The position numbers and the translations under genes were made by a program. Below the pieces are notes generated by a model. That model did no database searches, had not been told where the DNA came from, and was given only the letters and a program-made list of their open reading frames with translations. A stretch of 49,888 nt of DNA from Bacillus sp. FJAT-29790 (GTDB lineage: Bacteria; Bacillota; Bacilli; Bacillales; Cytobacillaceae): NCBI RefSeq assembly GCF_019039215.1, contig NZ_JAHNZZ010000001.1, positions 2,388,603 through 2,438,490 of the forward strand, given 5' to 3'. Shown here one piece after another: positions 3,429 to 49,888 of the stretch. Within the stretch, counting starts at the first letter, position 1; the number at the start of each line of letters is the position of its first letter.

Positions 3429-3657
3429 AGCTCTTTTCTCATAGTTTGTTGGTTTTGGCTTTAAAAGTTTGCCCATTGATTTCCGCTGCGGGCACTTGCT
3501 TTCCGCGAGGAGGGACGGAAGCCTCCTCGGCGTACCGCCTGCGGGGTCTCTCGCTTCCCTCTATTCCCCGCTGGAGTCAAGTGCCCTCCGCTCCAATCAA
3601 CTCAGATTTATATATATAAAATCACACTAATAAAGCAACAAAGTTTACGAAAACAGC
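3429..3657. repeat. MITE-like repeat, family A (copy A1)
   Basis: This 229-bp element has degenerate ends (left AGCTCTTTTC, right CGAAAACAGC) and the GC-rich family core. The core runs from TTGATTTCCGCTGCGGGCAC to AGTGCCCTCCGCTCCAATCAA and can fold into a long imperfect hairpin (GGGCACTTG with CAAGTGCCC; TTGATT with AATCAA). It lies between the hemL terminator and spoVID. No ORF within it looks real. Confidence 0.85.
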
Positions 3658-3699
3658 AAAAAAAACACCCATCTAATTAGAAATAGATGAGTGTTTTTG
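3658..3699 (-). terminator. hemL / hem operon terminator
   Basis: The minus strand reads AACACTCATCTA, a seven-base loop, then TAGATGGGTGTT followed by a T-run. This is a canonical intrinsic terminator seven bases after the hemL stop. Confidence 0.85.
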
Positions 3700-3706
3700 A
3701 AAGTTA

Positions 3707-4996
3707 TTATCCTTTAAGCTTCGAGAAGGCATTTTCTGTAGCTTGGATTGTTTTTTCGATATCTTCATCACTATGGGCTGTCGATAGGAATAATCCTTCA
3801 AATTGGGAAGGTGGAAGGAATACGCCCTGGTTCGCCATCTCACGGTAATAAGAAGCAAAATAGTCTAAATTTGAAGTTTTTGCTTTTTCATAATTAATCA
3901 CGTGTTCATTTGTAAAAAAGAACCCAATCATTGAACCGGCACGATTAAAGGTATTCGGAATCTCATACTTTTCAGCAGCTGCTTTAATCCCCGCCTCAAG
4001 CATGTCGCCTTTTCGTTGGAATTCCTTATATGTCTCCGGAGTTAGCTGGCTCAATGTTTCATATCCTGCCGTCATGGCTAACGGATTTCCTGATAGTGTT
4101 CCAGCTTGATAAATTGGTCCACTCGGTGCAATTTGTTCCATTATTTCAGCTTTGCCGCCATACGCGCCAACAGGAAGTCCGCCGCCGATTACTTTTCCGA
4201 GGCATGTAATATCAGGCGTAACATTGAAATGCCCTTGTGCACAATGATATGCAACACGGAAGCCAGTCATGACTTCATCAAAAATCAATAATGATCCGTA
4301 TTGAGTCGTAATGTCTCTCAAGCCTTCTAAAAATCCTGGCAGCGGAGGGACAACGCCCATATTACCGGCAACCGGTTCAACGATGATGCCTGCAATATCT
4401 TCACCGAATTGTTCAAAGGCATATTTAACACTTTCAAGGTCATTGTATGGGACAGTGATTGTATTTTTTGCTACACCTTCTGGCACTCCGGGACTATCTG
4501 GTAAACCAAGTGTTGCGACACCGGAGCCAGCTTTAATAAGGAGGGAATCACCATGCCCATGATAACAGCCTTCAAACTTCATAATTTTATTCCGGCCAGT
4601 ATAGCCGCGCGCAAGTCTCAGTGCACTCATCGTCGCTTCTGTACCAGAAGAAACCATGCGAACAATCTCGATTGATGGGACTCTTTCTTTTACTAGCTTT
4701 GCCAGTTCATTTTCGGTTACAGTTGGTGCACCGAAGCTTGTACCCATTTCAGCAACCTTTTTAATTGCTTCAACAACACGGTCATTGGAATGCCCCAAAA
4801 TTAGGGGACCCCAAGACAAAACATAATCAATATATTCATTGCCATCTATATCATAAATTTTCGATCCTTTTCCTCTTTCCATAAAAATAGGATCCATTTT
4901 AACGGATTTAAATGCACGAACAGGGGAGTTTACCCCTCCAGGCATTAATGTGCTAGCTTCTTTAAAAGCCTCAATGGATTTATCGTAAGAGCGCAT
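3707..4996 (-). CDS. hemL: Glutamate-1-semialdehyde 2,1-aminomutase
   Basis: HemL converts glutamate-1-semialdehyde to 5-aminolevulinate, the step after HemA in C5-pathway haem synthesis. The 429-residue protein has the class-III aminotransferase signature. [15 protein letters not shown] binds the cofactor phosphate region, [11 protein letters not shown] contains the PLP-contacting Asp, and Lys268 in [11 protein letters not shown] is the expected Schiff-base lysine. The N-terminus [11 protein letters not shown] is typical and GGGAGGATCAT precedes the ATG. It is the last gene of the hem cluster and is followed by a strong terminator. Bacillus genomes often carry a second paralogue (gsaB), but the position in the hem operon makes this hemL. 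Confidence 0.96.
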
Positions 4997-5010
4997 ATGA
5001 TCCTCCCTCT

Positions 5011-5030
5011 AGGGTGAAAGAAAACACCCT
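5011..5030 (-). other. Small hairpin between hemB and hemL
   Basis: AGGGTG and CACCCT, separated by eight bases, form a perfect 6-bp stem just upstream of the hemL ribosome binding site. It may tune hemL translation or stability. It has no T-run, so it is not a terminator. Confidence 0.4.
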
Positions 5031-5042
5031 AATTTTATCGAA

Positions 5043-6020
5043 TTATTGTTCTTTCAACCATCTAGCTGCATCTTTCGCATGATACGTAATAATTAAGTCA
5101 CAGCCAGCACGCTTCATGCCGGTCAGCATTTCCATAACAATTCTTTCCTCATCGATCCAGCCATTTTGAGCCGCAGCCTTTACCATCGAATATTCGCCGC
5201 TTACATTATAAATAACGAGCGGAAGATTGATATTATTTTTCACGTCGCGAACGATATCAAGGTATGGCATGCCCGGTTTGACAATTAAGAAATCTGCACC
5301 TTCCATCAAATCGGATTCTGCTTCACGAATTGCTTCCATCCGGTTAGCAGGGTCCATTTGATAGGCTTTTCGATCGCCAAATTGCGGTGTGCTGTCAGCA
5401 GCCTCTCGGAATGGACCGTAAAAAGCGGACGCATACTTCACCGCATAGGACATGATCGGAATATTTTCAAAACCGGCTTCATCTAAACCAGCACGAATCG
5501 CAGCTACGAACCCATCCATCATATTAGAAGGAGCAATAATATCCGCCCCTGCTTTAGCTTGACTGACAGCCGTTTGCACTAATAATTCAAGCGAAGGATC
5601 GTTTGATACATCGCCATTTTCAATCACACCGCAGTGCCCATGGCTTGTAAATTCACAAAGGCAAGTATCAGCAATGACAATGACATCGGGATATTTCGAT
5701 TTGATTAAGCGCGTTGCTTCCTGGACAATTCCATGGTCATGATAGGCTTGTTTGCCGCATTCATCTTTTTCAATCGGAATTCCGAATAACAGCACAGATT
5801 TAATGCCTAATGAAACGACTTCATTCATTTCTTCCTCAAGATGATCTAACGATAAATTATAAATTCCAGGCATTGATGAAATTTCTCTTTTAATATCATT
5901 TCCTTCTGCAACAAAAATCGGGTAAATGAAATCATCTGTACGCAAATGATTCTCACGGACTAATGCCCTCATGTTTGCGCTTTGACGAAGCCGTCTATGG
6001 CGTGTGAATTGTAAATCCAT
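5043..6020 (-). CDS. hemB: Delta-aminolevulinic acid dehydratase (porphobilinogen synthase)
   Basis: HemB condenses two 5-aminolevulinate molecules to porphobilinogen in the cytoplasm. The 325-residue protein shows the metal-binding cysteines (Cys120, Cys122, Cys130 in [14 protein letters not shown]), which indicates a zinc-type enzyme. The two active-site lysines are Lys195 in [11 protein letters not shown] and Lys248 in [12 protein letters not shown]. The ATG follows GGAGGGAATCTTAAT. It sits between hemD and hemL as in other Bacillus. The 157-bp gap to hemD contains an imperfect hairpin, unlike the tighter spacing elsewhere in the operon. Confidence 0.96.
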
Positions 6021-6177
6021 ATTAAGATTCCCTCCACTAATTAGTTTCTATATGGCGCTATTAAACAATATTGCTGCTATAACCGCGGGTTCGATTTACC
6101 TTCCGAGAGGCGGGTTTTGCATTCGCAAAAAAGGCTCTCTCCAGGCAAAATCGCCCCGCTAACAAACATTTTCAACA

Positions 6178-6960
6178 TCATTCAATAACAATGCCTTCTA
6201 AATAAGCAATAATATTTTCTAACATATGAGGGACCGTATACACATCGGGAGCGGTATGTACGGTAAGCCCGTAAGACTCGACCTTTGCTCTCGTTACTGG
6301 TCCAATGCACCCAATGACAGAGTTATCAAGCATATGAAAAAGATTATTTTTCTTAACTTCTCCCATAAAATGATCGACAGTTGATGGACTAGTAAAGGTC
6401 AGGATATCCAAAACCCCAGCCTTTTCCTTTATTAGCTGTCTGCTTTCTTCAGGAAAATAAGTTTCATACATGATTAATTCATCAACATGGGACCCTTTTT
6501 CAGACAAGGCAGTATAAATATAATTACGTGCTAAGTTTCCTTTAGGGATTAAAATCTTCATTCCCTTTTTAACGAACGGCAAAAATTCTTTCACAAATCC
6601 TTCTGCCACATATTCACTAGGCATAAAATCGACTTGAAGCCCAAAACGATGCAGGCAACTTCTTGTTTTCTCGCCAATGGCGGCAATTTTCGGAAAATCC
6701 TTTTGCTGATGAAGGTTAACATAAGATAAAAATGTCTCTACTGCAATATTGCTTGTGAAGATTATCCAGTCAAACGTATGTAATTGCGCGATTTTCGCAA
6801 GGGCTTCTTCTGTGATCTCAACGGGCCGAAAAGCAATCAGAGGGATTTCCACTGGATTTCCTCCATAGCTTGCTACTAGATCTGAAAAAGATTTCGCCTG
6901 TTTCTTTCCCCTCGGAACTAAAACATTCTTCCCGATAAAAGGAAGGGAGGAGGCGGTCAT
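6178..6960 (-). CDS. hemD: Uroporphyrinogen-III synthase
   Basis: HemD cyclises hydroxymethylbilane to uroporphyrinogen III with D-ring inversion. The 260-residue product has the two-lobed HemD pattern. Recognisable segments are [10 protein letters not shown] at the N-terminus, [15 protein letters not shown], and [11 protein letters not shown] with [16 protein letters not shown] in the second lobe. The family is poorly conserved, so the assignment also rests on location. Its ATG overlaps the hemC stop (ATGA, 4 bp), which implies translational coupling. Confidence 0.92.
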
Positions 6961-8781: not shown

Positions 8782-8795
8782 AGACAGTACTCCTC

Positions 8796-10982: not shown

Positions 10983-11564
10983 TTACATATAACTTTCCAT
11001 TACTGCCCAAGCTTGATCCTTACCTTGTCCTGTTTCAGAAGAAAACATGATCAAATGATCTTCTGGGTCCAAATCTAATGTTTCTTTCGTAATTTTTACA
11101 TGCTTTTGCCATTTTGATTTTGGAATTTTGTCGGCCTTCGTTGCAATAATGATACAAGGAATTTCATAATGTTTCAGGAAGTCATACATCATAACATCAT
11201 CCTTCGTCGGGGGATGACGTAAATCAACAATTAGTAAAACAGCTTTTAGCTGCTCCCTATTCGTCAAATATGTTTCGATCATTTTCCCCCATGCTTCCCG
11301 TTCCTTTTTAGAAACCTTCGCATAACCATAGCCAGGGACATCGACAAAATGAAGGATTTCATTAATTAAATAAAAGTTCAATGTTTGTGTTTTTCCCGGC
11401 TTTGACGAGGTACGCGCTAAATTTTTCCGATTGAGCACCTTATTAATAAAGGAAGATTTCCCGACATTGGATCTGCCCGCTAATGCAAACTCAGGTAAAG
11501 CCTCACCGGGGTATTGGTCAGGCTTCACCGCACTAATAACGATGTCAGCTGTATTTACTTTCAT
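10983..11564 (-). CDS. engB: Ribosome-biogenesis GTPase EngB (YsxC)
   Basis: EngB/YsxC is an essential TrmE-Era-EngA-like GTPase needed for assembly of the large ribosomal subunit. The 193-residue protein shows the G1 loop GRSNVGKSS (residues 30-38), G3 [11 protein letters not shown]4 TKADKI, and a family-typical N-terminus with [12 protein letters not shown]. Its ATG overlaps the lon stop by 4 bp (ATGA), so the two are probably cotranscribed and translationally coupled, the same lonA-ysxC order as in B. subtilis. Confidence 0.96.
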
Positions 11565-13888
11565 GCTTGTGCACCACCATTCAATGCATGTTTTAATACT
11601 TCACCCACATGGGAAACGAGGACAAAGGTGAGCTCTTCACGGACACTTTCAGGGATATCATCAATATCCTTTTCATTATCCTTCGGAAGAATAATTTTTG
11701 TAAGTCCTGCCCGGTGTGCACTCAATGTTTTTTCCTTCACTCCACCGATTGGAAGAACACGGCCACGGAGTGTAATTTCACCTGTCATGCCCACTTCTCT
11801 TCGGATTGGCTTACCAGAAAGAGCTGAAACAAGTGCAGTTGCAATGGTAATGCCGGCTGATGGGCCGTCCTTTGGTACTGCCCCCTCAGGTACGTGGATG
11901 TGGATATCATGCTTTTCGTGAAAATTCTCATCAATCTCTAATTCCTTTGCTTTTGAACGAACGTAACTAAATGCAGCTTGGGCCGATTCTTTCATCACAT
12001 CTCCAAGCTTCCCTGTGAGCACAAGCTTTCCTTTTCCTGGAGAGAGGGATACCTCAATTTGCAGTGTATCTCCGCCAACAGTCGTGTAAGCAAGCCCAGT
12101 CGCTACGCCAACCTGATCTTCAGTCTCCGCTTGTCCATATCGAAATTTAGGCTTTCCTAAAAACTCTTCAACATTCTTTTCAGTGATAATAATCTTTTTC
12201 TTATCACCGGAGACGATAATTTTAGCTGTCTTTCGGCAAATGGTTGCAAGCTGACGTTCTAATCCACGAACACCAGCCTCTCTTGTGTAATAACGTACGA
12301 CCATTTGAATGCCGTCCTCACGGATTTGAAGCTGTGATTTTGATAAGCCATGGTCCTTAATTTGCTTAGGTAAAAGATGATCTTTCGCAATGTGAACCTT
12401 TTCTAGTTCGGTATAACCTGCAATCGTAATAATCTCCATCCGGTCACGGAGAGGCCCCGGAATCGTCGCCAAATTATTCGCTGTTGCAATAAACATGACT
12501 TTTGAAAGATCATACGTTTCTTCTATATAATGATCGCTGAAATTATGATTTTGTTCTGGATCCAATACTTCTAGCATCGCAGACGAGGGATCACCGCGGA
12601 AATCATTCGACATTTTGTCAATTTCATCAAGCAAGAATACAGGGTTAATCGTACCCGCCTTTTTCATTCCTTGAATGATGCGGCCAGGCATTGCCCCCAC
12701 GTAAGTTCTTCGATGTCCGCGAATTTCAGATTCATCTCGAACACCACCAAGGGATATTCGAACAAAATTCCGGTTAAGAGAAGTGGCTATCGAACGTGCT
12801 AAACTTGTTTTCCCAACACCTGGAGGTCCCGCAAGACAAAGAATCGGTCCTTTAAGTGAATTGGTTAGCTTTTGGACGGCCAAATACTCTAGTACGCGCT
12901 CTTTTACGTTCTCAAGACCATAATGATCATTATTTAAAATACGTTCAGCTTTATGAATGTCTAAATCATCTTCTGTCGCCTTTTCCCACGGCAATGATAT
13001 AAGCCACTCAATATAATTGCGGATAACGGCACTCTCTGCAGAACTGGAAGGAACCTTTTCGTATCTATCCAATTCTTTCAATGCTGTTAATTCAACATGT
13101 TCAGGCATTTGGGCCTTTTCAATTTTTTCGGTAAGATCGGCAATTTCCCCTGTCTTTCCTTCTTTGTCTCCAAGTTCCTTCTGAATCGCCTTCATTTGTT
13201 CACGCAAATAATATTCTTTTTGCGTTCGTTCCATCGACTTTTTAACCCGCTGCCCAATTTTTTTCTCTAAATTCATTACTTCTTTTTCATTATGAATGAT
13301 TTCAATCACTCGGTTCATCCGGTCTTTAACATCTATTGTTTCAAGAATGTCTTGTTTTTCCTTTAACTTTAAAGGCAGGTGGGATGAAATAATATCTGCC
13401 ATCCGACCAGGCTCTTCAATATCCGCAACCGCTGAGTAGGTTTCAGCTGATATTTTCTTAGACACCTTTATGTACTGTTCAAAGTATTCGAGCATTGTTC
13501 TCATTAATGCCTGATCTTCGACATCTTTTGTTGTTTGTTCTTCTTGTACTGTGATACTTACCATATAATGACTTGTTTCATCTTGGAACTCTACAATTTC
13601 AGCTCTTTTTAATCCTTCTACAAGGACACGTATCGTCCCGTTTGGCAGTTTAAGCATTTGTTTTACTCGTGTTAATGTTCCCACCTGAAATAAATCTTCT
13701 TCTCCCGGCTCATCTATTGAAATTTCTCTTTGCGTAGTTAGAAAAATTAAATGGTCATCTACCATCGCTCTTTCAAGTGCTTGTACCGATTTTTCGCGCC
13801 CAACATCTAAATGCAAGACCATTGTCGGATAAACTAGCAAACCCCGAAGCGGAAGGAGGGGGACGATGATTTCTTTCTTATTCGCCAA
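11561..13888 (-). CDS. lonA: ATP-dependent protease Lon (LonA)
   Basis: LonA is the soluble hexameric AAA+ protease that degrades misfolded and regulatory proteins. The 775-residue product has the N-terminal LON domain ([18 protein letters not shown]), the Walker [10 protein letters not shown], Walker [11 protein letters not shown], and the C-terminal Ser-Lys protease domain. The catalytic serine is in [10 protein letters not shown] (about residue 680) and the lysine in [15 protein letters not shown] (about 722). The start codon is TTG with GGAGGTG eight bases upstream. No in-frame ATG fits better. Overlap with engB indicates an operon. No CtsR operator was recognised. Confidence 0.97.
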
Positions 13889-13988: not shown

Positions 13989-14090
13989 AAAGCTACTTTG
14001 CTGCTATTTAACCAAAATGAGGTCTAGTTGATTTCCCCTCCAATCAACTTTATAAATAATCTATTTAAAAACAACAATTATATAGATAAT
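13989..14090. repeat. Degenerate remnant of family A/B repeat
   Basis: The 22-bp core GTTGATTTCCCCTCCAATCAAC (split here as GTTGATT and AATCAAC arms at 14028-14049) looks like a family A/B element whose hairpin interior has been deleted. The sequence to the right (CTATTTAAAAACAACAAT) matches the right end of the copy at 47417-47662. The outer boundaries are approximate. Confidence 0.5.
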
Positions 14091-14150: not shown

Positions 14151-14330
14151 GAAAAGCGGAGGCGGCTTGGTCAGCCCCGACAAGCATAAGACAATCCGGC
14201 AGAAAGGTTGTTTTTTAACCTTTTTGACGGATTGGCTTATGACCTCGAGGTCGACAAAAACGCGACGTCCTGTCGCATTGTCGACACTAGTACGTCCTAT
14301 ACGTCGGGGTTAGCCGCCGGAGCTAGACAG
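14151..14330. repeat. Structured repeat, family C (copy C1)
   Basis: This 180-bp element begins GAAAAGCGGAGGCGGCT and ends AGCCGCCGGAGCTAGACAG. Its ends are complementary (GGCGGCT with AGCCGCC; GCCCCGAC with GTCGGGG). Inside are two nested hairpins, one with AAGGTT/AACCTT within CAATCCG/CGGATTG and one with GTCGAC arms. It ends one base before the lonB stop codon, so it would be in the lonB 3' UTR. Confidence 0.8.
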
Positions 14331-16089: not shown

Positions 16090-16213
16090 GCTGTTTTCGC
16101 ATATATTGCTGTTTTTAGCCTACAAAGTATGCTCGTTGATTTCCGCTGCGGGCACTTGCTTTCCGCTCCAATCAACTCAGATTATAAAAGCAACAAACTT
16201 TAAGAAAACAGCC
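16090..16213. repeat. MITE-like repeat, family A, internally deleted (copy A2)
   Basis: This is a 124-bp short form with the family A left end GCTGTTTTCGCATATATTG and right end GAAAACAGCC. The hairpin interior is missing. The junction CTTTCCGCTCCAATC looks like a deletion between two TCCGC direct repeats present in full-length copies. It lies upstream of lonB. Confidence 0.85.
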
Positions 16214-18030: not shown

Positions 18031-19317
18031 TTATGCAACAGTCTTGCTATTTTCCACAAGGAAATCAACTGCTTTTTTAATTTGAAGATCCGCTTTTAGG
18101 CCTTCCAGGCTACCTAGCGCTTTTTGAATATCTTCAACTGCCATATTATACATGCCAGCCATTTTGTTAATTTCTTCAGTTACTTCTTCATCAGTAACTT
18201 CGATATTTTCTGCTTTTGCAATTGCTTCAAGCGTTAAGTTTGTGCGGACGCGCTTCTCAGCATCTTCTTTCATTTGCTCGCGTAATGCACTCTCTTCTTG
18301 TCCAGAGAATTGGAAGTAAAGTTCAAGATTCATGCCTTGCATTTGAAGACGTTGTTCAAATTCAGTCATCATGCGGTCAATTTCCGTATCAACCATAACA
18401 TTCGGCAGATCAATTTCTGTGTTTGCAGAAGCTTTTTCCACTACAGCATCTTGTACGAAATGTTCACCTTCATGCTTCTTGCTTTCTTCTAAACGAGTTT
18501 TAACTTTTTCTTTAAGAGCATCTAAAGTTTCAACTTCTTCGTCAACATCTTTTGCAAACTCGTCATCTAACTGAGGAAGTTCTTTCGTTTTAATTTCATG
18601 AACAGTTACTTTGAAAACTGCAGGTTTTCCAGCTAATTCAGCTGCATGATACTCTTCAGGGAATGATACTTCAACATCTTTAGAATCTCCAGAAGCTAAA
18701 CCTACTAGTTGTTCTTCAAATCCAGGAATGAACTGTCCAGAACCAAGTTCAAGAGAATAGTTTTCAGCTTTGCCGCCTTCGAATGCTTCTCCATCTACAA
18801 AACCTTCAAAGTCCATTACGACTGTATCGCCGTTTTCAGCTTTTCCTTCTTCTTTAACAACAAGTTCTGCTTGTTTTTCCTGCATAGCTTTTAATTCATT
18901 ATTGATATCTTCTTCAGTTACTTCAGTATCAAATTTCTCAACTTCAAGACCTTTGTATTCGCCAAGTTTAACTTCAGGCTTTACAGTAACTGTTGCTTTG
19001 AAAATTAAGCTTTTACCTTTTTCAATTTGTTCAACATCAATTTCAGGACGATCTACTGGTTCGATTCCAGTTTCTTCAATTGCTCCTGCATACGCATCTG
19101 GAAGCAGAATATCAATTGCATCTTGGTAAAGTGATTCAACTCCGAAACGCTTTTCAAACATTCCACGAGGCATTTTCCCTTTACGGAAACCAGGAACATT
19201 TACTTGTTTAACTACTTTGTTAAATGCAGCATTTAATCCTTCTGTAACTTTTTCTGCATCTACTTCAATTGTAAGAACCCCTTGGTTCCCTTCTAACTTT
19301 TCAAATTTTGCAGACAT
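18031..19317 (-). CDS. tig: Trigger factor (ribosome-associated chaperone and PPIase)
   Basis: Trigger factor binds ribosomal protein L23 at the exit tunnel and protects nascent chains. It has the ribosome-binding signature [14 protein letters not shown] (about residues 40-53). A central FKBP-type prolyl isomerase domain follows ([20 protein letters not shown] ... [12 protein letters not shown]), then a long acidic helical C-terminal chaperone domain. The length is 428 residues. The start [11 protein letters not shown] is set by GGAGGG ten bases upstream. The frame stays open 126 bases further into a repeat element, but that extension is an arginine-rich artefact. The leader of about 240 nt contains repeat B1. 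Confidence 0.97.
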
Positions 19318-19344
19318 ATGGTTATTTCCCTCCAACAATCTATT

Positions 19345-19529
19345 ATCTCTGTTAACCTTGCCTGTTGATTTCCACTCCAGGCGCTTCGCTTTCCGCGGGG
19401 CGGGCGGTGAGCCTCCTCGGCGCATGCGCCTGCGGGGTCTCACCTGTCCCGCTACTCCCGCAGGAGTCTACGCGCCTTCCGTTCCAATCAACAAAGTGCA
19501 AAAATCAACATTAAACTTTAACATAGTCT
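19345..19529. repeat. MITE-like repeat, family B (copy B1), in the tig leader
   Basis: The core runs from TTGATTTCCACTCCAGGCG to CGCCTTCCGTTCCAATCAA, with ends related to CTGTTAACC (left) and CTTTAACATAG (right). It lies between the tig promoter and the tig start codon. It would therefore be transcribed as a GC-rich hairpin in the 5' UTR. Confidence 0.8.
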
Positions 19530-20681: not shown

Positions 20682-20928
20682 AGAAAAGCGCAAGGCGCCC
20701 GAATGTCGGCGACAAGCATAAGACGAGCCAGCTAAAAGGCTGTTCTTTAACCTTTTGGACGGATTGACCGAAATGTGGAGGCGACTGTTCAGGGACGATA
20801 GCATAAGACAAGCCCTGCAGGAATGCGTTCTTTCCCTTCTGGAAGGGATTCGCTTATGCTATCGTCCCTAGGAGCCGCAACTAGACACCTTTATGACCTC
20901 GAGCCGATGGCGCCTCGCGCTAGACAGC
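20682..20928. repeat. Family C repeat with a second copy nested inside (C2)
   Basis: The outer copy begins GAAAAGCGCAAGGCGCC and ends GATGGCGCCTCGCGCTAGACAG. After GACGGATTG it is interrupted by an inner unit (about 20767-20893) that starts AAATGTGGAGGCGACT, ends GCAACTAGACACC, and has a long stem GGGACGATAGCATAAG/CTTATGCTATCGTCCC. The outer copy then resumes at TATGACCTCGAG, as in copy C1. It lies between the leuD terminator and ysoA. Confidence 0.8.
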
Positions 20929-32337: not shown

Positions 32338-32383
32338 GGGTTGATTCCTCCTATATCCCAATTGGATCAATTTTTTCTTCAAT

Positions 32384-32559
32384 GGCTGTGTTAAATGTTG
32401 CTGTTGATTTCCGCTGCTCGCTTTCCGCGGGCGGTCGGAGAGCCTCCTCGTTGCTAACGCTCCTGCGGGGTCTCCCCTGACACGCTTCTCCCGCAAGAGT
32501 CTCGCGCCTTCCGCTACAATCAACAAGTGGAAATATCAACATTAAACTTTAACACAGCC
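32384..32559. repeat. MITE-like repeat, family B (copy B2)
   Basis: This 176-bp element has perfect 12-bp terminal inverted repeats GGCTGTGTTAAA/TTTAACACAGCC and the GC-rich core. The flanks TCTTCAAT and TCTCCAAT are a near-perfect 8-bp direct repeat and could be a target-site duplication. It lies immediately upstream of rph. Confidence 0.85.
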
Positions 32560-32571
32560 TCTCCAATAAAG

Positions 32572-32600
32572 AAGAGGCGGCAATATTTGCCTACCTCTTT
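32572..32600 (-). terminator. Candidate gerM terminator
   Basis: The minus-strand stem AAGAGG-GGCAA/TTGCC-CCTCTT is an interrupted hairpin followed by CTTTATTGG. The T-run is weak. It could allow read-through into rph. Confidence 0.5.
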
Positions 32601-32635
32601 TTATTGTTATTATATAGTATATCAAAAACCTTTTT

Positions 32636-33706: not shown

Positions 33707-33808
33707 ATTTAATCCCTCCAAAGACAGTTTGTACTACATGTATACGAGCCTGTTTGTAATTTATACCGTCTTGGGGGAAAAAAATTTGGTTCGAATTTCA
33801 AAAATTAC

Positions 33809-35962
33809 TTAGACCGTCTTTTCCAAATCTTGCTTAGTTAGGACAGCCTTTATAGCAAAATAGTCAATTTCAGGAGGTAATTCATCTTTGATCGGCTTGA
33901 GCTTTTCCCTTCCAACTTTTTGGACAGCTTCCACAACGAGCAATTCTGTTTGCTCATCAAATATATCTGACCAATTCACTTGATTTCCTTCCTTAACAGA
34001 GCGAAGGATATGATCCTGAATCGTGACAGAGGAAAAATTCCGTTTTTTAGCAATCTCATTTATCGTCAAACCCTCTATATAATATTGGTACGACAATAAA
34101 TAGCTTGGAATGTCATTTGCCCGATCATTATTTTCCTCTGGTTGCCTTTGAGGAGTAATCGAGTCCATCTGAATATTTTGTTCAATCATAAATTTCTTGA
34201 TTTCTTCGATGAAATATTTCCCATACTTATCAAATTTCACCTGGCCTACGCCCTTAATTCTCATCATCGTTTCTTTTTCTACCGGATAATACCGACTCAT
34301 TTCTTTTAATGCTGTATCTGCAAACACAACGTAAGGCGGCACTTTTTCTTGATCCGCTAATTCCTTCCGCAGTGAACGAAGGACTGCAAAAAGATCACTA
34401 TTTTCTTCTGTCTCGACAGCTGGTGCTTGAATAGCTATTTTCATATAGAGCAATTCTTGTTTTTTCAACACCGGTATGGAGTTCTCAGATAGTTTAACGA
34501 CAGGAAACTTACTATCTGTTAACAATAAATACCCTTCAGCAAGTAAATAATTGATGATATCAACAATTTCTTTTTCCTTGTAATGCTTAAGCAAACCATA
34601 TGTGGAGAGCTTGTTAAAATGAAAGTCGCGAATTCGCTTATTTTGAGAGCCCTTCAAAACCTGGGCAGTTAAAGTTACACCAAAACGCTCACCCATCCTT
34701 TTTATACAAGAGAATATCATTAAGGCTTCTTGGGTAATGTCGACTTGTTCGCGCTTGTCCATACAATTGCTGCATTTCCCGCAGCCCTTAATTGTATGAT
34801 TAGGATCAAAATACTCAATAATATAAGATTGCAGACATTTCTCCGTATGGCAGTAATGTACCATTTGCTTTAATTTATTATATTCCTGCTCCCGCTTTTG
34901 ATAATCTAGGTTTGATTCTTCGATCAGAAACTTTTGCAGCTGAATGTCCTGTGGAGAATATAAGAGATAGCATACACTTTCTTCTCCATCTCTTCCGGCC
35001 CGTCCCGCCTCTTGATAATACGCCTCGATATTGCGCGGCAGATTATAGTGAATGACATAACGGACATTCGACTTATCAATTCCCATGCCAAAAGCATTTG
35101 TCGCAATCATAATGTCTGCCTCATCATAAACAAATTGGTTCTGTGCTTTGATCCGGGTTTCTTCATTTAGCCCGGCATGATACTTGGCAACAGAATGATG
35201 CTGAGCTTTTAATTGAGTATATAACTGATCAGCCTCTTTGCGGCTGGAAGTGTAAATAATTCCCGACTGGTTCGGATGATTTCTAATATATTGACTGATA
35301 AAATCTCTTTTATTCACGCCTTTCATTACATGAAAAGCAAGGTTATCGCGGGCAAATCCGGTAATAAAGGTGTCTGTTTGCCTAATATTTAATAATTTCC
35401 TGATATCATCCGCGACGTCCTTTGTCGCAGTTGCTGTCAAGGCCGCAATAATAGGCGTTTGATTTAGCCTTCCTAAATTAGTTACGATCGAACGATAACT
35501 TGGCCTGAAATCATGCCCCCACTGGGAAATACAATGGGCCTCATCAAATACAATCATGGAAATGGACATTGAATTTACTAAGTCCAAAAATCCTCCTGAT
35601 TCAAACCGCTCAGGAGCCACATAAATAAGCTTGAATTCCCCATTGCGAATTCCTGTAATTCTTTCCTGATATTCTTGCTGGGAGAGTGAGCTGTTAATGA
35701 AAGTAGCGGGGATTTCTGCGGTAAGGAGCGCATCTACCTGATCTTTCATGAGAGAAATTAATGGAGAGATGACAATGGAAACTCCAGGGAGCAGCAGTGC
35801 TGGAATTTGAAAACAGAGGGATTTCCCACCGCCAGTCGGCAAGATACCGAGCGAATTCCTATGTTCTAGAAGATTGTGAATGATCTCTTTTTGACCAGTA
35901 CGAAAAGACGAATAGCCAAAGTATTGCTCTAAATATTTTTCAGCTTGTGTGAACAAATTCAT
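33809..35962 (-). CDS. recQ: RecQ-family ATP-dependent DNA helicase, long form
   Basis: This 3'-5' DNA helicase for recombination and repair has 717 residues, longer than the roughly 590-residue form I recall from B. subtilis. Domains in order are DEAD (LPTGGGKSLC, Lys47; DEAHCISQWGHDFRP), helicase C (GRAGRDGEE), the RecQ zinc site (HCHTEKCLQSYI ... CGKCSNC), the RQC winged helix and HRDC (about 530-600). A C-terminal helix-turn-helix (HTH_40-like) follows (about 625-715; GLTINEIAKKRNFSSVTIQDHI). The start is uncertain: ATG at 35960-35962 overlaps AGGTG, GTG at 35965 is in frame, and TTG at 35956 has better RBS spacing. It appears to stand alone between gerM and racE, which is not the B. subtilis arrangement. 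Confidence 0.93.
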   Translation of the reverse strand: MNLFTQAEKYLEQYFGYSSFRTGQKEIIHNLLEHRNSLGILPTGGGKSLCFQIPALLLPGVSIVISPLISLMKDQVDALLTAEIPATFINSSLSQQEYQERITGIRNGEFKLIYVAPERFESGGFLDLVNSMSISMIVFDEAHCISQWGHDFRPSYRSIVTNLGRLNQTPIIAALTATATKDVADDIRKLLNIRQTDTFITGFARDNLAFHVMKGVNKRDFISQYIRNHPNQSGIIYTSSRKEADQLYTQLKAQHHSVAKYHAGLNEETRIKAQNQFVYDEADIMIATNAFGMGIDKSNVRYVIHYNLPRNIEAYYQEAGRAGRDGEESVCYLLYSPQDIQLQKFLIEESNLDYQKREQEYNKLKQMVHYCHTEKCLQSYIIEYFDPNHTIKGCGKCSNCMDKREQVDITQEALMIFSCIKRMGERFGVTLTAQVLKGSQNKRIRDFHFNKLSTYGLLKHYKEKEIVDIINYLLAEGYLLLTDSKFPVVKLSENSIPVLKKQELLYMKIAIQAPAVETEENSDLFAVLRSLRKELADQEKVPPYVVFADTALKEMSRYYPVEKETMMRIKGVGQVKFDKYGKYFIEEIKKFMIEQNIQMDSITPQRQPEENNDRANDIPSYLLSYQYYIEGLTINEIAKKRNFSSVTIQDHILRSVKEGNQVNWSDIFDEQTELLVVEAVQKVGREKLKPIKDELPPEIDYFAIKAVLTKQDLEKTV

Positions 35963-36045
35963 CACCTAATTCTATAAATTTTCTTCTATTCTATCATGAT
36001 CTCAAAGGACAAGACACTGAAATGCAGGCAAATACGGTGGAAAAC

Positions 36046-36069
36046 AAAAAACCTTCATCAAGAAGGTTT
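36046..36069 (-). terminator. racE terminator
   Basis: The minus-strand stem AACCTTC/GAAGGTT with a five-base loop is followed by TTTTTTG. It separates the ysmB-racE unit from recQ. Confidence 0.75.
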
Positions 36070-36123
36070 AGTAGCTGGCAGACATGCCCTGTAAGCAGAG
36101 ATTACTCATATAATGGTCGTTTT

Positions 36124-36918
36124 TCATAGGATAATTTTTTCTATATTACTCACAGAGGTATTGAGCCATTTTGAAGCTATTTTAGTAAAAATCACTGTCG
36201 AACCTGTCGTATAAAATTGATGGTCCGGTTCCTCGTTGCTGTTATTTAGCAAGCCGTGATGATGGAGAATTGTACTTGCTTCCCTTGCCGTTTCCTCACC
36301 AGAACTGATGACTTTTACTTGATCCCCCATTACCTCTTTCACAAGTGGCTCGAGAAGCGGATAATGAGTGCAACCTAAAATAAGGGTATCCAATCCCCTA
36401 TTTTTTAAAGGCTGCAATGCTTCTGCAACAATTTTTTTCGCTACTGGTCCATCGTATTCCCCGCTTTCAACAAGCGGAACAAATTTTGGACATGCAAGGC
36501 TATGGACAACCGACCGGCTATTAATTTGTTTTAGCGCTTTCTCGTATGCATTGCTTTTAATCGTACCTTCCGTTCCAATGACACCGATGCGATGATTGTC
36601 AGTCACTTTGATTGCTGTTCTGGCTCCAGGGGAAATAACTCCAATGACAGGGATCGAAAGCTCATTGCGAATTTCCTCTAAAACGACCGCTGTAGCCGTA
36701 TTGCATGCAATAATAAGCATTTTAATCTTTTTTAATAGTAAAAAATCAGTCATTTGCCATGAAAAAGCTTTTACTTCATCGCCAGGCCTTGGACCATAAG
36801 GGCACCTGGCAGTATCGCCCAAATATACAATATTTTCATTCGGCAGCTGACGCATAACTTCCTTCGCTACAGTCAACCCGCCCACTCCTGAATCAATGAT
36901 GCCTATTGATTCTTTCAA
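36124..36918 (-). CDS. racE: Glutamate racemase
   Basis: RacE supplies D-glutamate for peptidoglycan and, in some Bacillus, for poly-glutamate. The roughly 264-residue protein has the N-terminal [22 protein letters not shown], the catalytic cysteine in [10 protein letters not shown] and the second catalytic cysteine in [13 protein letters not shown]. The preferred start is TTG at 36916-36918, with GAGGCGG upstream. A GTG at 36939 overlapping the ysmB gene is the alternative. Close linkage to ysmB indicates cotranscription, as in B. subtilis (ysmB-racE). Confidence 0.94.
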
Positions 36919-36928
36919 ACATACCGCC

Positions 36929-37387
36929 TCATTCTCCACGCATTTCTTGGTGTAATTTATGGAAGTTCTTCTTTAAGAGCAGAACTTCATCATTCGTAAA
37001 GTTTATTAGTACTTCTTTTAGATATAACTGCCGTTTTCTTATGCACTCCTCAATAATTCTCTCCCCTTCTTCTAACAAGTGGATTCGAACGACTCGCCGG
37101 TCGTTTGGATCTTTCACCCGTTTTACAAGGCTGTTCTTCTCCATTCGGTCCACAAGATCCGTCGTCGTACTGAAGGCGAGATACATTTTATTAGAAAGTT
37201 CCCCTATCGTCATGTCACCCTCTTCAAAAAGCCATTGCAAGGCAATAAATTGCGGGGGCGTTATCTTATAAGTACTTAAAATCTCACGGCCCTTTTGTTT
37301 AATAATGCCAGATATGTAACGCAAATCTTTTTCTATAACGGCAACAAAATCAATTTCTTCGTTTATTTTCACTTCTTCAAGCTCCAT
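36929..37387 (-). CDS. ysmB: YsmB, MarR-family transcriptional regulator
   Basis: This 152-residue winged-helix regulator has the MarR DNA-binding core [65 protein letters not shown] (about residues 45-110), including the conserved DxR wing motif DPNDRR. The ligand and targets are unknown. I chose the ATG at 37385-37387, nine bases after AGGAG; a TTG three codons upstream is closer to the RBS and less likely. It precedes racE. Confidence 0.9.
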
Positions 37388-37416
37388 AACATCCAACTCC
37401 TATAATTGCTTTTAAG

Positions 37417-37470
37417 CTTTTTTCTAGCCGCGTAAGAAATGCTTAATGCGTCCGGAGCTAGACAGTTATC
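37417..37470. repeat. Partial family C repeat (C4)
   Basis: The sequence CTAGCCGCGTAAG ... AATGCGTCCGGAGCTAGACAG carries the family C right end. The left end is truncated. It is located upstream of ysmB, adjacent to repeat A3. Confidence 0.55.
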
Positions 37471-37505
37471 CAACTTCAAAAAGCTTTTTCCCCTTGTTAA
37501 AAAGT

Positions 37506-37794
37506 GGCTGTTTTCGCATATATTGTTGTTTTTAGCCTTCCAAGTTTGCCCGTTGATTTCCGCTGCGGGCACTTGCTTTCCGCGGGAAGTGACGTGAGCC
37601 TCCTCGGCGTTACCGTCTGTGGAGTCTCACGTTCCCTCTTTTCCCGCAGGATACTGCATTTACATCCTTGAATCTGCCCACGCACGAAGGAAATGCGATA
37701 GCATTTTCGAGGAGTCAAGTGCCCTCCGCTCCAATCAACTCAGATTATTAAATAAAATCACGTTATAAAAGCAACAAACTTTACGAAAACAGCC
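37506..37794. repeat. MITE-like repeat, family A, long form (copy A3)
   Basis: This 289-bp element has near-perfect terminal inverted repeats GGCTGTTTTCG/CGAAAACAGCC and the family core. It carries an extra block of about 70 bp near the right arm (about 37653-37715, from ATACTGCATTTACATCC to GCATTTTCGAGG). A related block is present in copy B3. It lies between gerE and ysmB. Confidence 0.88.
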
Positions 37795-37907
37795 TAAAAT
37801 AAATATACATCTTCCTTTTGCCTTATTTTCACCTTTTTTCATTTAAATTTCAAGATTAAATTAGAGGTAATTTCAAACCATCGTCGATTATGTCTCAAAT
37901 AATTATA

Positions 37908-45824: not shown

Positions 45825-45834
45825 AAAACAAGGC

Positions 45835-45873: not shown

Positions 45874-46091
45874 GTCATTTTTACCTTTATTCAGCAGAAG
45901 TCTCCCATTTCCATAAGTGGCGAGATGAATGCAATAAGTATCCAATTCAGTGGGGGTTCAACCCCCGGCTGAATAAAGGTAAGCCTCCGGCGGATGCCTC
46001 AGATTATTTAAAGGAATTTATCGAGCAAGCTAAGGTAAAAATCCTGGCGCAAATACGCCAAGGCGAATTTGATTTTACAATTAGGAATTAA
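45861..46091 (+). CDS. Doubtful ORF overlapping a branched inverted-repeat element
   Basis: This is a 76-codon frame whose first possible codon is a TTG inside the yslB terminator, with no RBS. The N-terminal half is encoded by the inverted-repeat element at 45883-45980. The C-terminal part (DASDYLKEFIEQAKVKILAQIRQGEFDFTI) looks protein-like: charged, helical, with plausible codon use. The 3' end overlaps the lysC stop on the opposite strand by 11 bp. It could be the tail of a decayed gene or chance. I do not recognise a family. Confidence 0.25.
   Translation: MKAFCHFYLYSAEVSHFHKWRDECNKYPIQWGFNPRLNKGKPPADASDYLKEFIEQAKVKILAQIRQGEFDFTIRN
45883..45980. repeat. Branched inverted-repeat element
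   Basis: The outer 13-bp perfect stem ACCTTTATTCAGC (45883-45895)/GCTGAATAAAGGT (45968-45980) encloses two hairpins. One has CTC-CCA/TGG-GAG arms (about 45902-45923). The other is GGGGGTTCAACCCCC (45952-45966). Together they would fold as a three-way junction in RNA or a cruciform in single-stranded DNA. It is located between the yslB terminator and lysC. The pattern recalls IS200/IS605-type or REP-type palindromic ends, but no transposase is nearby. Confidence 0.7.
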
Positions 46092-46575
46092 TCGGTATTC
46101 CCGATAGGTTGAAAGCCTTATGCAAGGCTTCAACAGCTTGTAGCATCTTTTCTTGCTCTACCACTGTTGAAACTTTGATTTCAGACGTACTAACCATTTT
46201 TACTGAAATATCGCCTGCGGCTAACACTTCAAACATCTCAGCGGCAACACCTGGGTTTGAGACCATTCCTGAGCCAACAATCGATACTTTCGCAAGACCC
46301 GATTCTGTTTCAATGCGGTCGTAATTTAATTTGTGCTTTCGATCTTCTAGAACCTTAACTGTATCTTCCATGTCTTTATTCTTTATTGAAAATGATAGAT
46401 TTGTTGTGTCTTCAGCTGTCGTGCTTTGAATAATAATATCGACATTTATTTGGCTTTTTGCCAATTCTGAAAATATCACGGAAAGGCCTGTCAAAGAATT
46501 TGGCAAGCCAAGAACCGTCACTCTTGTTATATCATCTTCAAAAGCCACACCACGTACAACTAAATTTTGTTCCAT
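46081..46575 (-). CDS. lysC: Aspartokinase II beta subunit (internal in-frame start)
   Basis: An internal ATG at 46573-46575 (MEQNLVVRGVAF) is preceded by GAGGAGG at eight bases. It would give a 164-residue product consisting of the ACT-domain region. In B. subtilis, lysC is known to yield alpha and beta subunits from such an in-phase internal start, forming an alpha2-beta2 enzyme. The sequence here preserves both the codon and the RBS. Confidence 0.8.
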   Translation of the reverse strand: MEQNLVVRGVAFEDDITRVTVLGLPNSLTGLSVIFSELAKSQINVDIIIQSTTAEDTTNLSFSIKNKDMEDTVKVLEDRKHKLNYDRIETESGLAKVSIVGSGMVSNPGVAAEMFEVLAAGDISVKMVSTSEIKVSTVVEQEKMLQAVEALHKAFNLSGIPINS

Positions 46576-47310
46576 TTTTACTTCCTCCTCAATAATTGTT
46601 CCTGAAACTCTTTCGATACTGGAACGGACTTCTAAGGGAATGTTGAAGTTTTTTGCAAACTCCACTGCTCTTGGATGTAAAACCCCCGCACCTAAATGAG
46701 CAAGCTCAAGCATTTCATCATACGACACCGCCATAAGTTTCCTCGCATCTTTTATATAACGCGGATCAGTCGTAAATACGCCTGTCACATCCGTATAGAT
46801 ATCACATTTATCTGCCTTAAGGGCCGCAGCCAATGCAACAGCTGTTGTATCAGAACCTCCACGGCCTAAAGTAGATATTGCACCTTCCTCTGTTACTCCT
46901 TGGAACCCGGCAACAACAATGATATTGCCTTGACGTAATTCGGTTTCCATCTTTTCCGTATCTATGTCAAGAATTCTTGCGTTTCCATGAACCGATTCTG
47001 TCTTAATTCCTGCCTGCCATCCTGTGAAAGAAACAGCTGGATAGCCCTTTTCAATTAAAGCCATCGCTAATAATGAAATGGTAACCTGTTCTCCTGTCGT
47101 TAAAAGCATGTCCATTTCACGCTTGCTTGGCTGAGCCGAAATTTCCTTTGCTAATCCGACTAGTTGATCTGTTGATTTTCCCATTGCTGAGACAACTACA
47201 ACGACGTCATTACCTCTACCCTTTTCTTCAATTATTCGCTCGGCTACATTTTGTATCCTCGCAACATCGCCAACCGACGTACCACCGAATTTCTGTACAA
47301 TTAATCCCAC
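46081..47310 (-). CDS. lysC: Aspartokinase II, lysine-sensitive (alpha subunit)
   Basis: LysC phosphorylates aspartate, the first step to diaminopimelate, lysine, threonine and methionine. The 409-residue protein has the kinase motif VQKFGGTSVG, SAMGKSTDQL, TTGEQVTISLLA and TLGRGGSDTTA, and two C-terminal ACT domains (RVTVLGLPNSLTGLSVIF; VSIVGSGMVSNPGVAAEMF). The GTG start at 47308-47310 (MGLIVQKF) follows AAGAAGGAAAAACA; an upstream ATG at 47331 has no RBS. The leader holds a lysine riboswitch, so lysine represses it. It converges with yslB. Confidence 0.96.
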   Translation of the reverse strand: MGLIVQKFGGTSVGDVARIQNVAERIIEEKGRGNDVVVVVSAMGKSTDQLVGLAKEISAQPSKREMDMLLTTGEQVTISLLAMALIEKGYPAVSFTGWQAGIKTESVHGNARILDIDTEKMETELRQGNIIVVAGFQGVTEEGAISTLGRGGSDTTAVALAAALKADKCDIYTDVTGVFTTDPRYIKDARKLMAVSYDEMLELAHLGAGVLHPRAVEFAKNFNIPLEVRSSIERVSGTIIEEEVKMEQNLVVRGVAFEDDITRVTVLGLPNSLTGLSVIFSELAKSQINVDIIIQSTTAEDTTNLSFSIKNKDMEDTVKVLEDRKHKLNYDRIETESGLAKVSIVGSGMVSNPGVAAEMFEVLAAGDISVKMVSTSEIKVSTVVEQEKMLQAVEALHKAFNLSGIPINS

Positions 47311-47416
47311 TGTTTTTCCTTCTTTCCTCATATTCGTTTTGTTTAGTTTTTCTCACCTTAATGCAGATTACCCTTAAAAAGATTGCTTCCAACTTGTATT
47401 TGCTTTTTTTAAACTA

Positions 47417-47662
47417 GGCTTTGTTAAACTTGCCTGTTGATTTCCGCTCCAGGATGCTCGTTTTCCGCGGGCCGGGCGGTGAGCCTCATCAAGCACTCAG
47501 CCTATGGGGTCTCACCTGTCCCGCTACTCCCGCATGACATTGAATAAACATCCGTGAATTTACACCCACGAAAAAATATGCATTTTGAGGATCTCGCACC
47601 TTCTACTCCAATCAACTTCATACAAACCTATTTTAAAAACAACAATCATTTAGAAAACAGCC
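47417..47662. repeat. MITE-like repeat, family B/A hybrid (copy B3)
   Basis: The left end, GGCTTTGTTAAACTTGCCTG, is of B type. The right end, TTAGAAAACAGCC, is of A type. The core matches the family, with the same extra block seen in A3. It begins directly beyond the T-run of the lysine-riboswitch terminator and fills most of the interval to lysC. Confidence 0.82.
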
Positions 47663-47663
47663 A

Positions 47664-47942
47664 ATAAAAAAAGCAATGAGATCGTATCTCATTGCTGTGC
47701 TGTCAAACGTATAACAAAAATACGCACACATTGAGATAGCTCTCCAAGACAAAAACATGTCTTGACAATCCTACATTTATTAAATGCAAGACCAGCAAAG
47801 AAAGTGATGAGACTTTCTCCACTTCGGCAAACATTCCCTTTCAAAGCTTTTCCTTGAAGCTCATTCTTCTCCAAGCTTTTACTATTGAAGTTCGCACCTC
47901 TACCTTCACTTTAACGCTATAAAGTGATGTTGATATAAAGTT
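47664..47942 (-). promoter_or_regulatory. Lysine riboswitch (L-box) with terminator
   Basis: The minus strand carries L-box conserved blocks: GAGGTGCGAAC (47890-47901), AGTAAAAGC, AAGGGAATG, GCCGAAG (47822-47828), TTTGCTGGTC and CTTGGAGAGCT. The intrinsic terminator GCAATGAGAT/ATCTCATTGC (47673-47695) and a T-run follow. Lysine binding should favour termination and shut off lysC. The spacing and motif order are those of the Bacillus lysC leader. Confidence 0.93.
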
Positions 47943-47948
47943 TCAGTT

Positions 47949-47977
47949 AGTATAGCATATTGACTCTTTTCTGACAA
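47949..47977 (-). promoter_or_regulatory. lysC promoter
   Basis: TTGTCA (47972-47977), a 17-base spacer and TATACT (47949-47954) give a sigma-A promoter just upstream of the L-box. It lies directly 3' of the uvrC stop codon. Confidence 0.75.
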
Positions 47978-47979
47978 CG

Positions 47980-49752
47980 TCATTCCTGTAACTTTCGTTT
48001 TAATTCTTCCGCAACATTTGCCGGGATCCCGATTTCCTTAAACTGTTCGATCGAAGCTTCTTTCATTTTCTTTACTGACCCAAAGGTTTTTAGCAGCTGC
48101 TTTTTCCGTTTCTCCCCGATTCCCGGAATATCATCAAGCATTGATTGAAACGCATTTTTCCCGCGTAATTGCCTATGAAACGTAATGGCGAAACGGTGTA
48201 CCTCGTCCTGGATTCTCTGCAGCAAATAAAACTCTTGGCTGTTCCGGGCAAGCGGAATAATTTCCAAGGGGTTCCCATACAGCAGCTGTGAAGTTCGATG
48301 TTTTTCGTCCTTAACAAGTCCAGAAATAGGGATGTCAAGGCCTAGTTCATTTTCAAGAATATCCCTTACTGTATCCACATGCCCCTTGCCTCCATCAATT
48401 AAGATCAAATCCGGGAGCGGCAAGCCTTCATTAAGTACTCTGACATATCTCCTGCGGACAACCTCTCGCATAGATTCATAATCATCAGGGCCTTGAACCG
48501 ATTTAATTTTATATTTGCGGTATTCCCTTTTCTCCGGTTTGCCATCAATGAATACGATCATCGCTGAAACCGGGTCTGTTCCTTGGATATTCGAATTATC
48601 GAAAGCTTCGATTCGATGCGGAGTGTAGATTCCGAGTTGTTTCCCTAAATTTTCAACAGCCTTAATCGTTCTTTCCTCATCCTTTTCAATGAGAGAGAAT
48701 TTTTCCTGAAGGGCAAGCTTTGCATTTTTACATGCAAGCTCAACCAGTTCCTTTTTTTGGCCGCGCTGTGGCTTTAGTACTTTCACCTGTAAAAGCTGTT
48801 CGGCCATTTCAGTGTTAATCGAATGAGGAGTCAATATCTCGCGAGGCTTAAAGTGGTTCGTTTTTGAGTAGAATTGGCCAAGATAGGTTAATATTTCTTC
48901 CTCGGGCTCATTGTAAATTGGAAATGTGGAGACATCCCGCTCGATTAACTTTCCTTGTCTAATAAAAAATACTTGCACACACATCCAGCCTTTATCAACT
49001 GCAAATCCGAACACATCACGATCCGTAAAGTCTGTCGTTGTTATCTTTTGCTTTTCCATTGTTGCTTCAATATGAGCAATTTTATCACGCAGATCTTTTG
49101 CTCTTTCAAAGTCCAGCTCTTCGGCAGCTGCCATCATTTTTTCCGTTAAATCCTTCTTAATTTCTTTGTAGCCGCCATTAAGAAAACGGGTTATCTCGTC
49201 GAGTATTTTTTTATATTCCTGTTCACTAACTTCTTTTACACATGGTGCGAGACATTGCCCCATGTGATAGTAAAGGCATACGCGATCAGGCAAGGTTGTG
49301 CATTTTCTTAACGGATAGATTCGATCAAGCAGCTTTTTTGTTTCATTGGCAGCTTGCACGTTTGGATAGGGTCCGAAATATTTACCTTTATCTTTTTTTA
49401 CTTTCCGGACGGTTATGAGACGAGGATGCCTCTCTGCTGTTAATTTAATAAATGGATAGCTTTTGTCATCTTTAAGCATGACATTATATTTCGGATCATA
49501 TTTTTTGATCAAATTCAGTTCAAGGATTAAAGCTTCTATATCGGAAGATGTAACAATATATTCAAAGTCTTCGATTTCATTGACAAGCCTTAAAGTTTTT
49601 CCGTCATGTGAGCCTGTAAAATACGATCTAACCCGATTTTTTAATATTTTTGCCTTGCCAACATATATGATCGTCCCTTGCCGGTCTTTCATTAAATAAC
49701 AGCCTGGCTGATCTGGCAAAAGCATAAGTTTGTTTTTTATTGTATCATTCAC
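47980..49752 (-). CDS. uvrC: UvrABC system protein C (excinuclease subunit)
   Basis: UvrC makes both incisions in nucleotide excision repair. The roughly 590-residue protein has an N-terminal GIY-YIG nuclease ([29 protein letters not shown]), a cysteine cluster ([23 protein letters not shown]) that may hold an Fe-S cluster, and a UVR motif ([18 protein letters not shown]). The RNase H-like endonuclease region ([32 protein letters not shown]) and a C-terminal helix-hairpin-helix pair ([15 protein letters not shown]) follow. I chose the GTG at 49750-49752 (MNDTIKNKL), which aligns with the family start; a GTG at 49761 is also possible. Confidence 0.96.
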
Positions 49753-49772
49753 TGTTCTCACATCCCGGTGTT

Positions 49773-49800
49773 ATAAGAAAAGCTTAATGCGCCTTTGGAA
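49773..49800. repeat. Left-end fragment of a family C repeat (C6)
   Basis: AAGAAAAGCTTAATGCGCC matches the family C left end. The right end is not visible before the family A copy begins. Confidence 0.4.
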
Positions 49801-49814
49801 CAATCTATTTTTAA

Positions 49815-49888
49815 GGCTGTATTCGTATATACTGTTGTTTTTAGCCTTGAAAGTTTGCCCGTTGATTTCCGCTGCGGGCACTTGCTTT
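49815..49888. repeat. MITE-like repeat, family A, cut by window end (copy A4)
   Basis: The left end GGCTGTATTCGTATATACTG and the start of the core TTGATTTCCGCTGCGGGCAC are present. The element continues beyond the window. It lies upstream of uvrC. Confidence 0.85.

Follow-up and report, generated by a model that had tools for sequence, protein, structure and literature searches.

Why should a small mobile repeat point the same way at every site that it occupies? The question is raised by a stretch of 49,888 nt from Bacillus sp. FJAT-29790 (contig NZ_JAHNZZ010000001.1, positions 2,388,603 to 2,438,490; the whole stretch is called the window here), in which eight copies or remnants of a hairpin-bearing repeat all lie on the plus strand. 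A reading made from the letters of the window (the sequence-only reading) had proposed a family resembling miniature inverted-repeat transposable elements (MITEs) in a single orientation and had offered two causes, a strand preference of the mobilizing enzyme or selection for a transcribed structure. The single orientation stands in the window but not genome-wide, as exact matches to a 13-mer of the repeat core number 98 on the plus strand and 64 on the minus strand of contig C1, split by replication arm. What most copies between co-directional genes share instead is an orientation antisense to those genes, and this bias was traced to the core of the repeat.

Orientation relative to genes and replication

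The core 13-mer, GTTGATTTCCGCT, occurs in 232 exact copies genome-wide and its reversed control in none. Profile searches recovered 89 copies in 929,888 bases, mostly from evenly spaced stretches (1.7% of that DNA), which scales to an estimated 435 or so copies in the genome. Three subfamilies share one common hairpin core, with consensus elements of 291 bp (A), 183 bp (B), and 220 bp (C). Two end types had been described from the window, and both are found, the GGCTGTTTTC type in subfamilies A and C and the GGCTcTGTTAAA type in subfamily B, but the subfamilies number three and not two. The shared ends of the core exceed chance in the window: one search gave 21 matches with ≤2 mismatches versus 8.0 expected and a second gave 8 with ≤3 mismatches versus 1.5 expected, neither number being reached in 100 shuffles. 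Short forms without most of the core have their junctions at direct repeats around TTTCCGCT, which fits an origin by deletion across the hairpin. The core 13-mer is present in 56 of the 81 genomes searched (home genome included), with at least five copies in 38, and the reversed control occurs at most twice per genome. A phage collection searched with one B copy gave no match, and a plasmid collection searched with one A copy gave partial matches in 16 records, with 80% coverage in none.

Orientation is not random genome-wide, the bias being strong but not universal. On contig C1, 7 core 13-mers are on the plus strand and 49 on the minus strand before 1.35 Mb, and 91 and 15, respectively, after it; GC skew and coding strand both switch at about 1.3 to 1.4 Mb. 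Agreement with the replication arm is found for 140 of the 162 (86%), which are, judging from the match listings, all of the exact copies on C1, the other 70 of the 232 being on other contigs at positions not listed.

Gene direction was considered for 185 copies of the home genome, a copy being sense if its plus strand is co-transcribed with its neighbors and antisense if it is opposed to them. Gene calls were hexamer based and replaced first open reading frame calls that included spurious genes, and earlier tallies (e.g., 74/81) differ slightly. Co-directional genes flank 136 copies, of which 124 are antisense and 12 sense (105 versus 9 for gene pairs on the leading strand, 9 versus 2 on the lagging strand, and 10 versus 1 on contigs of unknown arm). 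Divergent gaps hold 12 lag-type copies, 11 lead-type copies, and 1 unassigned copy, convergent gaps are divided 14 to 5, and 6 copies are placed otherwise. Similar proportions were obtained in a more even set of 89 copies, from the window, from 40 roughly evenly spaced stretches (known positions being visible when they were chosen), and from four stretches of contigs C2 to C5 near known matches. Here, 61 of 64 copies in co-directional gaps are antisense (leading 47/2, lagging 4/0, unknown arm 10/1), divergent gaps are split 6/6 with 1 unassigned, convergent gaps are split 8/1, and 3 copies lie elsewhere.

In a regression on the even set, restricted to copies with a known arm and both neighbors called (n = 74), gene direction was significant given replication (P = 4e−6) and replication was not significant given gene direction (P = 0.3). 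For all home genome copies (n = 167), the corresponding values were 1.6e−9 and 0.09, in a set where some C1 stretches had been centered on copies at odds with the replication rule and which is therefore tilted against that rule. Gene direction explains the bias better than replication and is the stronger factor, although replication may have a separate, smaller effect. The replication strand fails as sole cause in divergent gaps, where the even set is split equally and the full set almost so. The better- and worse-preserved halves of the copies carry the same bias (27/30 and 26/30), so copy age cannot separate biased insertion from later selection. In a second species (G018; 32 copies, all from stretches placed near known matches), co-directional gaps hold 17 antisense and 4 sense copies.

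Transposon ends and the shared core

The MITE proposal is borne out by terminal inverted repeats and by A/T-rich target duplications of 8 bp. Among 86 two-ended copies, 34 have perfect duplications, versus 0.9 expected when flanks of different copies are paired, and 28 match at 7 of 8 positions, versus 7.7 expected. Target duplications of 8 bp are characteristic of the IS1595 family. The sequence-only reading had proposed a search for a transposase with matching ends, and candidate mobilizers of this kind were found in relatives: 13 of 30 fetched loci of IS1595 (PF12762) transposases carry the ends of the repeat (5 of the A/C type and 8 of the B type), and 11 of these 13 autonomous loci show target duplications with 7 or 8 of 8 positions matching. 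The remaining 17 loci have no such ends within the stretch examined. A 2.5-kb degraded element of Peribacillus loiseleuriae (L172:3488-5975) has the same ends, an 8-of-8 duplication, a fragment with a weak PF12762 match below the family cutoff, and other reading frames. The repeats themselves are short and have no transposase. As their ends and 8-bp duplications match those of PF12762 loci in relatives, they are classed on sequence grounds as nonautonomous IS1595-family MITEs of two IS1595-type transposon groups. A PF12762 profile search gave matches in 28 of the 81 genomes and none in the home genome, and with no helper transposase found there, the copies are apparently inactive now.

Two other identities were rejected. 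For the ISL3 family as mobilizer, PF01610 gave no match in the home genome, and the ends found at 30 ISL3 loci from relatives are of other types. REP/BIME sequences are palindromes that depend on an IS200-like enzyme and produce no target duplication; the present repeats have target duplications and terminal inverted repeats, and an IS200-like enzyme was not searched for. Separately, Alkalihalobacillus sp. BA299 (L157, L160, L166, L181, L186, and L226) has a coreless family with the same ends, with terminator-like hairpins inside (by eye) and 8-of-8 duplications in most copies.

Elements from other genomes allow ends and core to be considered apart. The sample comprised at least 105 stretches from Bacillaceae and related records, in which 73 of 107 end motifs had a recognizable partner end (the other 34 were dropped before the tallies) and 46 of the 73 elements lie in co-directional gaps. 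Among the loci listed, several of which come from one genome and are not independent, core-bearing elements are antisense in 23 of 30 cases (P = 0.005), comprising 17 of 24 in which the core points one way relative to the end and 6 of 6 in which it points the other way. Coreless elements with the same ends, some of which may hold decayed cores, are divided 9 to 7 in co-directional gaps among the loci listed; scored by C−G skew, they are uninformative (8/6, with two ties). Since core-bearing elements are biased either way round and coreless ones are unbiased, the orientation bias follows the core and not the ends handled by the transposase. These counts disfavor a strand preference of the enzyme and support the second of the two causes first offered, selection on the transcribed sequence or structure.

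Other repeats vary in this respect. A family represented at 6054 to 6178 of the window, with 14 copies in the stretches examined, has 5 antisense and 3 sense copies in co-directional gaps and thus no bias; its left end is GGCGCTATTAAAC, with GATTTACCTTCCGAGAGGCGGG inside. A second repeat, q14178 (14151 to 14260 and 20710 to 20766 of the window; it contains CGACAAGCATAAGAC), has 11 copies in the stretches of the home genome and G018, and all 9 of those in co-directional gaps are antisense.

The transcribed strand and competing explanations

The transcribed strand of the core is predicted to fold as a single long hairpin. In 26 diverse cores (14 from other genomes, 11 from G000, and 1 from G018, the four most divergent of 30 representatives, L204:5513, L241, L165, and L191, being left out), 95.2% of the cells in the 28 consensus pairs of the RNAalifold structure are paired. 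Both sides have changed in 11 pairs, versus 6.7 in shuffles (reached by 3 of 500), and covariation cells number 43, versus 9.6 (reached by none of 500). Two 3-by-3 GGA/GGA internal loops are seen by eye on the transcribed strand, which is more stable than its complement in 33 of the 39 cores folded (of 115). By our own count, the consensus has 22 G-U cells on the transcribed strand versus 11 A-C cells, but in individual folds G-U pairs are commoner on the other strand (347 versus 178). No copy matches a known structured RNA in Rfam 15 at gathering score, and a search of 32300 to 37900 at a relaxed threshold gave nothing on the copies there.

The strand that is avoided in transcripts is C rich. 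C exceeds G on the plus strand of all 88 long copies (over 150 nt). For the three consensus elements, the best window of 150 nt has a C−G of +18 to +20 if sense and −15 to 0 as found, the mean of coding RNA being −8. Rho is present in all 81 genomes searched. According to a 2026 study of B. subtilis, long C-over-G stretches mark Rho-terminated fragments, and purine bias tracks transcription rather than replication (PMC13323073). Polarity could therefore arise where a sense copy lies between co-directional genes.

The best overall explanation, which is reasonably probable, is that IS1595-type MITEs with a common core undergo selection after insertion against the transcribed C-rich strand. MITEs of two IS1595-type groups would carry one common core and insert at random in orientation; selection would then remove copies whose C-over-G plus strand is co-transcribed with neighboring genes. 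The likeliest agent would be Rho, which attacks C-over-G transcripts in Bacillus, with polarity on the next gene as the expected result of a sense insertion. Copies left in the opposite orientation would yield RNA that is not C rich and is folded as a long hairpin, and the pattern suggests that a copy persists only if the cell tolerates its RNA. The parts of this explanation differ in strength: that selection acts on the core's transcribed strand is very likely, and Rho as the agent of that selection is offered tentatively, with evidence against it.

Several observations weigh against the explanation. Long sense exceptions, of which the home genome and G018 together have 12, show no significantly lower C richness than the 101 others (13.3 versus 14.1; P = 0.44), and no dose effect of excess C is seen. 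T richness, a second Rho feature in the same study (PMC13323073), is higher at its maximum in subfamily A as found (37.3%) than if sense (32.0%), which is not so in B and C. As RNA, either strand of the core forms a very stable structure, and since Rho sites of B. subtilis are reported to be without stable structure (PMC12350095), the stable core should hide a Rho site. Repeat q14178 has the C-rich strand as its transcribed strand, which the action of Rho does not explain. The antisense bias persists among copies behind a predicted terminator (62/70, versus 54/58 without a terminator; the split omits 9 of the 157 co-directional copies from the home genome and G018 that have a gene at a distance of more than 600 nt), and sense exceptions are slightly commoner there (8/70 versus 4/58, significance not computed). 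Convergent gaps show a lean in the direction of replication (14/5 overall and 8/1 for the even set) that would not be expected from polarity on a downstream gene, and their copies are antisense to the nearer gene in only 7 of 19 cases. When stretches centered on copies then uncovered, and thus tilted toward the replication rule, are added to the even set (n = 132), replication has an independent effect (P = 0.0007) alongside gene direction (P = 5e−6), and the regression gives no significant effect of gene direction for G018 by itself (n = 32; P = 0.31).

The main rival, unlikely but to be taken seriously, holds that the core encodes a functional RNA hairpin, such as a 3′-end stabilizer, processing site, or leader element, and that copies are kept where the right strand is transcribed. 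It draws on the excess of covariation, the GGA/GGA loops, the greater stability of the transcribed strand in most cores folded, the G-U content of that strand in the consensus, and the bias in convergent gaps, which suits a 3′-end role. However, some 400 copies can hardly all be useful, no Rfam family matches, the four most divergent representatives are outside the alignment, and the individual folds favor G-U pairs on the other strand. Template-switch correction of palindromes could also mimic covariation, yet it is not expected to keep internal loops.

That the replication fork directs insertion through a lagging-strand preference, with gene direction looking causal because most genes run with replication, is improbable. 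The agreement by arm on C1, the like lean of convergent gaps, and the replication terms of the regressions (strongest in the subset of 132 copies and at P = 0.09 in all home genome copies) are in its favor, but the copies in divergent gaps and the coreless elements are unbiased. Gene pairs on the lagging strand, furthermore, have antisense copies in 9 of 11 cases overall (5 of the 9 from stretches centered on rule breakers), in 4 of 4 in the even set, and in 4 of 6 with the stretches for uncovered copies added.

Insertion with fixed polarity by the transposase is very improbable: the left and right ends do differ within each subfamily, as it supposes, but relative to the GTAAA..TTGTTGC end, the core is opposite in A-like and C-like elements and antisense in both (6/6 and 17/24), and coreless elements with that end split 9/7. 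The Chi site of B. subtilis is AGCGG. Selection of orientation by Chi-like sites is scarcely credible, for although AGCGG occurs two or three times on the leading strand of the core, a recombination signal should follow the replication strand even in divergent gaps, which are split 12/11, and AGCGGA repeats also form both sides of the internal loops.

Copies in the window and known repeats

All seven copies listed in the sequence-only reading were recovered, and the remnant that it mentioned is a piece of the third subfamily. A subfamily A copy (3429 to 3657, plus strand, as are all those that follow) has a core without the inner insertion of about 60 nt and lies between hemL (3707 to 4996, minus) and spoVID (1952 to 3319, minus). 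The remnant (13995 to 14042) corresponds to positions 15 to 62 of the subfamily C model, its likeness to the right end of the copy at 47417 running on to 14104, and is located between lonB and a gene at 11561 to 13888 (775 amino acids) that we take to be lonA. A short subfamily A copy (16090 to 16213), its core cut to 42 nt, lies between clpX and lonB. Two subfamily B copies follow, one (19345 to 19529) roughly 10 nt away from where tig (18031 to 19335, minus) is called to start and one (32384 to 32559) with ends GGCTGTGTTAAA...TTTAACACAGCC, and then a full-length subfamily A copy (37506 to 37794) with the inner insertion of about 60 nt. A copy at 47417 to 47662, read by eye as a mosaic, has a B-type left end and a C-type right end, and a last subfamily A copy (49815 to 49888), cut by the end of the window, lies 5′ of uvrC (47980 to 49761, minus). 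The earlier description of the copies as lying just 5′ of genes is half true, as antisense copies in co-directional gaps (74 of 81, from an early set of 126 copies) are closer to the preceding stop (median, 56 nt) than to the next start (median, 104 nt).

The copy between clpX and lonB was compared with 29 loci of the same genus, none of which has a complete copy, and the site counts as empty in these relatives. In all 29, the lonB leader block is present and there is no core 13-mer between the block and clpX; weak fragments (17 to 23 bits) match in L290, L292, and L298, and alignment across the junction, judged by eye, extends on the lonB-side flank only (e.g., L300 and L314). In one relative (G002), a copy is located on the other side of clpX (L303:2866-3084), and the same gene neighborhood was therefore struck independently.

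The mosaic copy adjoins a T-run hairpin (identified by eye) and lies between lysC (46081 to 47331, minus) and a lysine riboswitch (47729 to 47910, minus), which belongs to its context and not to the repeat. The order along the transcript is riboswitch (47910 to 47729), T-run hairpin, mosaic element (47662 to 47417), and lysC (47331 to 46081). The copy would be transcribed together with lysC unless another promoter lies between, and the site is therefore a natural one for an expression test.

Other features of the window are a tandem array at 1778 to 1882 with a 21-nt unit, TTTATCGGCCAAATT..., similar sequence being found at five other places in the stretches examined; two strong neighboring inverted repeats at 20791 to 20869 and 20965 to 21010, one of 33 nt (82%) and one of 23 nt (perfect); and two T-box leaders at 4 to 239 and 29439 to 29694, both minus.

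The repeats resemble IS1595-family insertion sequences and MITEs in their ends, their A/T-rich duplications of 8 bp, and the PF12762 loci with the same ends in relatives, and differ from them in having one structured core with two end types, a high copy number, a transcription-tied orientation, and no PF12762 match. By description, the pneumococcal BOX, RUP, and SPRITE elements are likewise numerous small, intergenic, nonautonomous repeats that lean toward the leading strand, at 60.8 to 63.3% (PMC3049150) versus 86% by arm here. For ERIC and the Neisseria CE elements, which belong to other hosts, the same paper describes RNase targets and effects on transcripts that depend on orientation. bcr1 and other stem-loop families are also intergenic repeats of Bacillus, again compared by description, bcr1 being specific to the B. 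cereus group according to a title in the reference list of PMC2267715. Among the titles and abstract openings listed by a literature search, none describes the present repeat, which is not proof that it is unpublished, as subscription papers were mostly outside the search; in a text search, short end strings occurred in 16 papers whose titles concern no repeat.

It is possible, though rather doubtful, that the core is a transferable, orientation-sensitive RNA module, exchanged among IS1595 families across Bacillaceae, with the transcription machinery, through Rho or through an RNA hairpin function, deciding which orientation persists. If so, the shared core would show that a structured insert is able to move from one transposon family to another whose ends differ, the hundreds of copies per genome would be an independent test of the proposed requirement that Bacillus transcripts avoid C-rich sequence, and the repeats would offer a way to part transcription from replication in the shaping of genomes.

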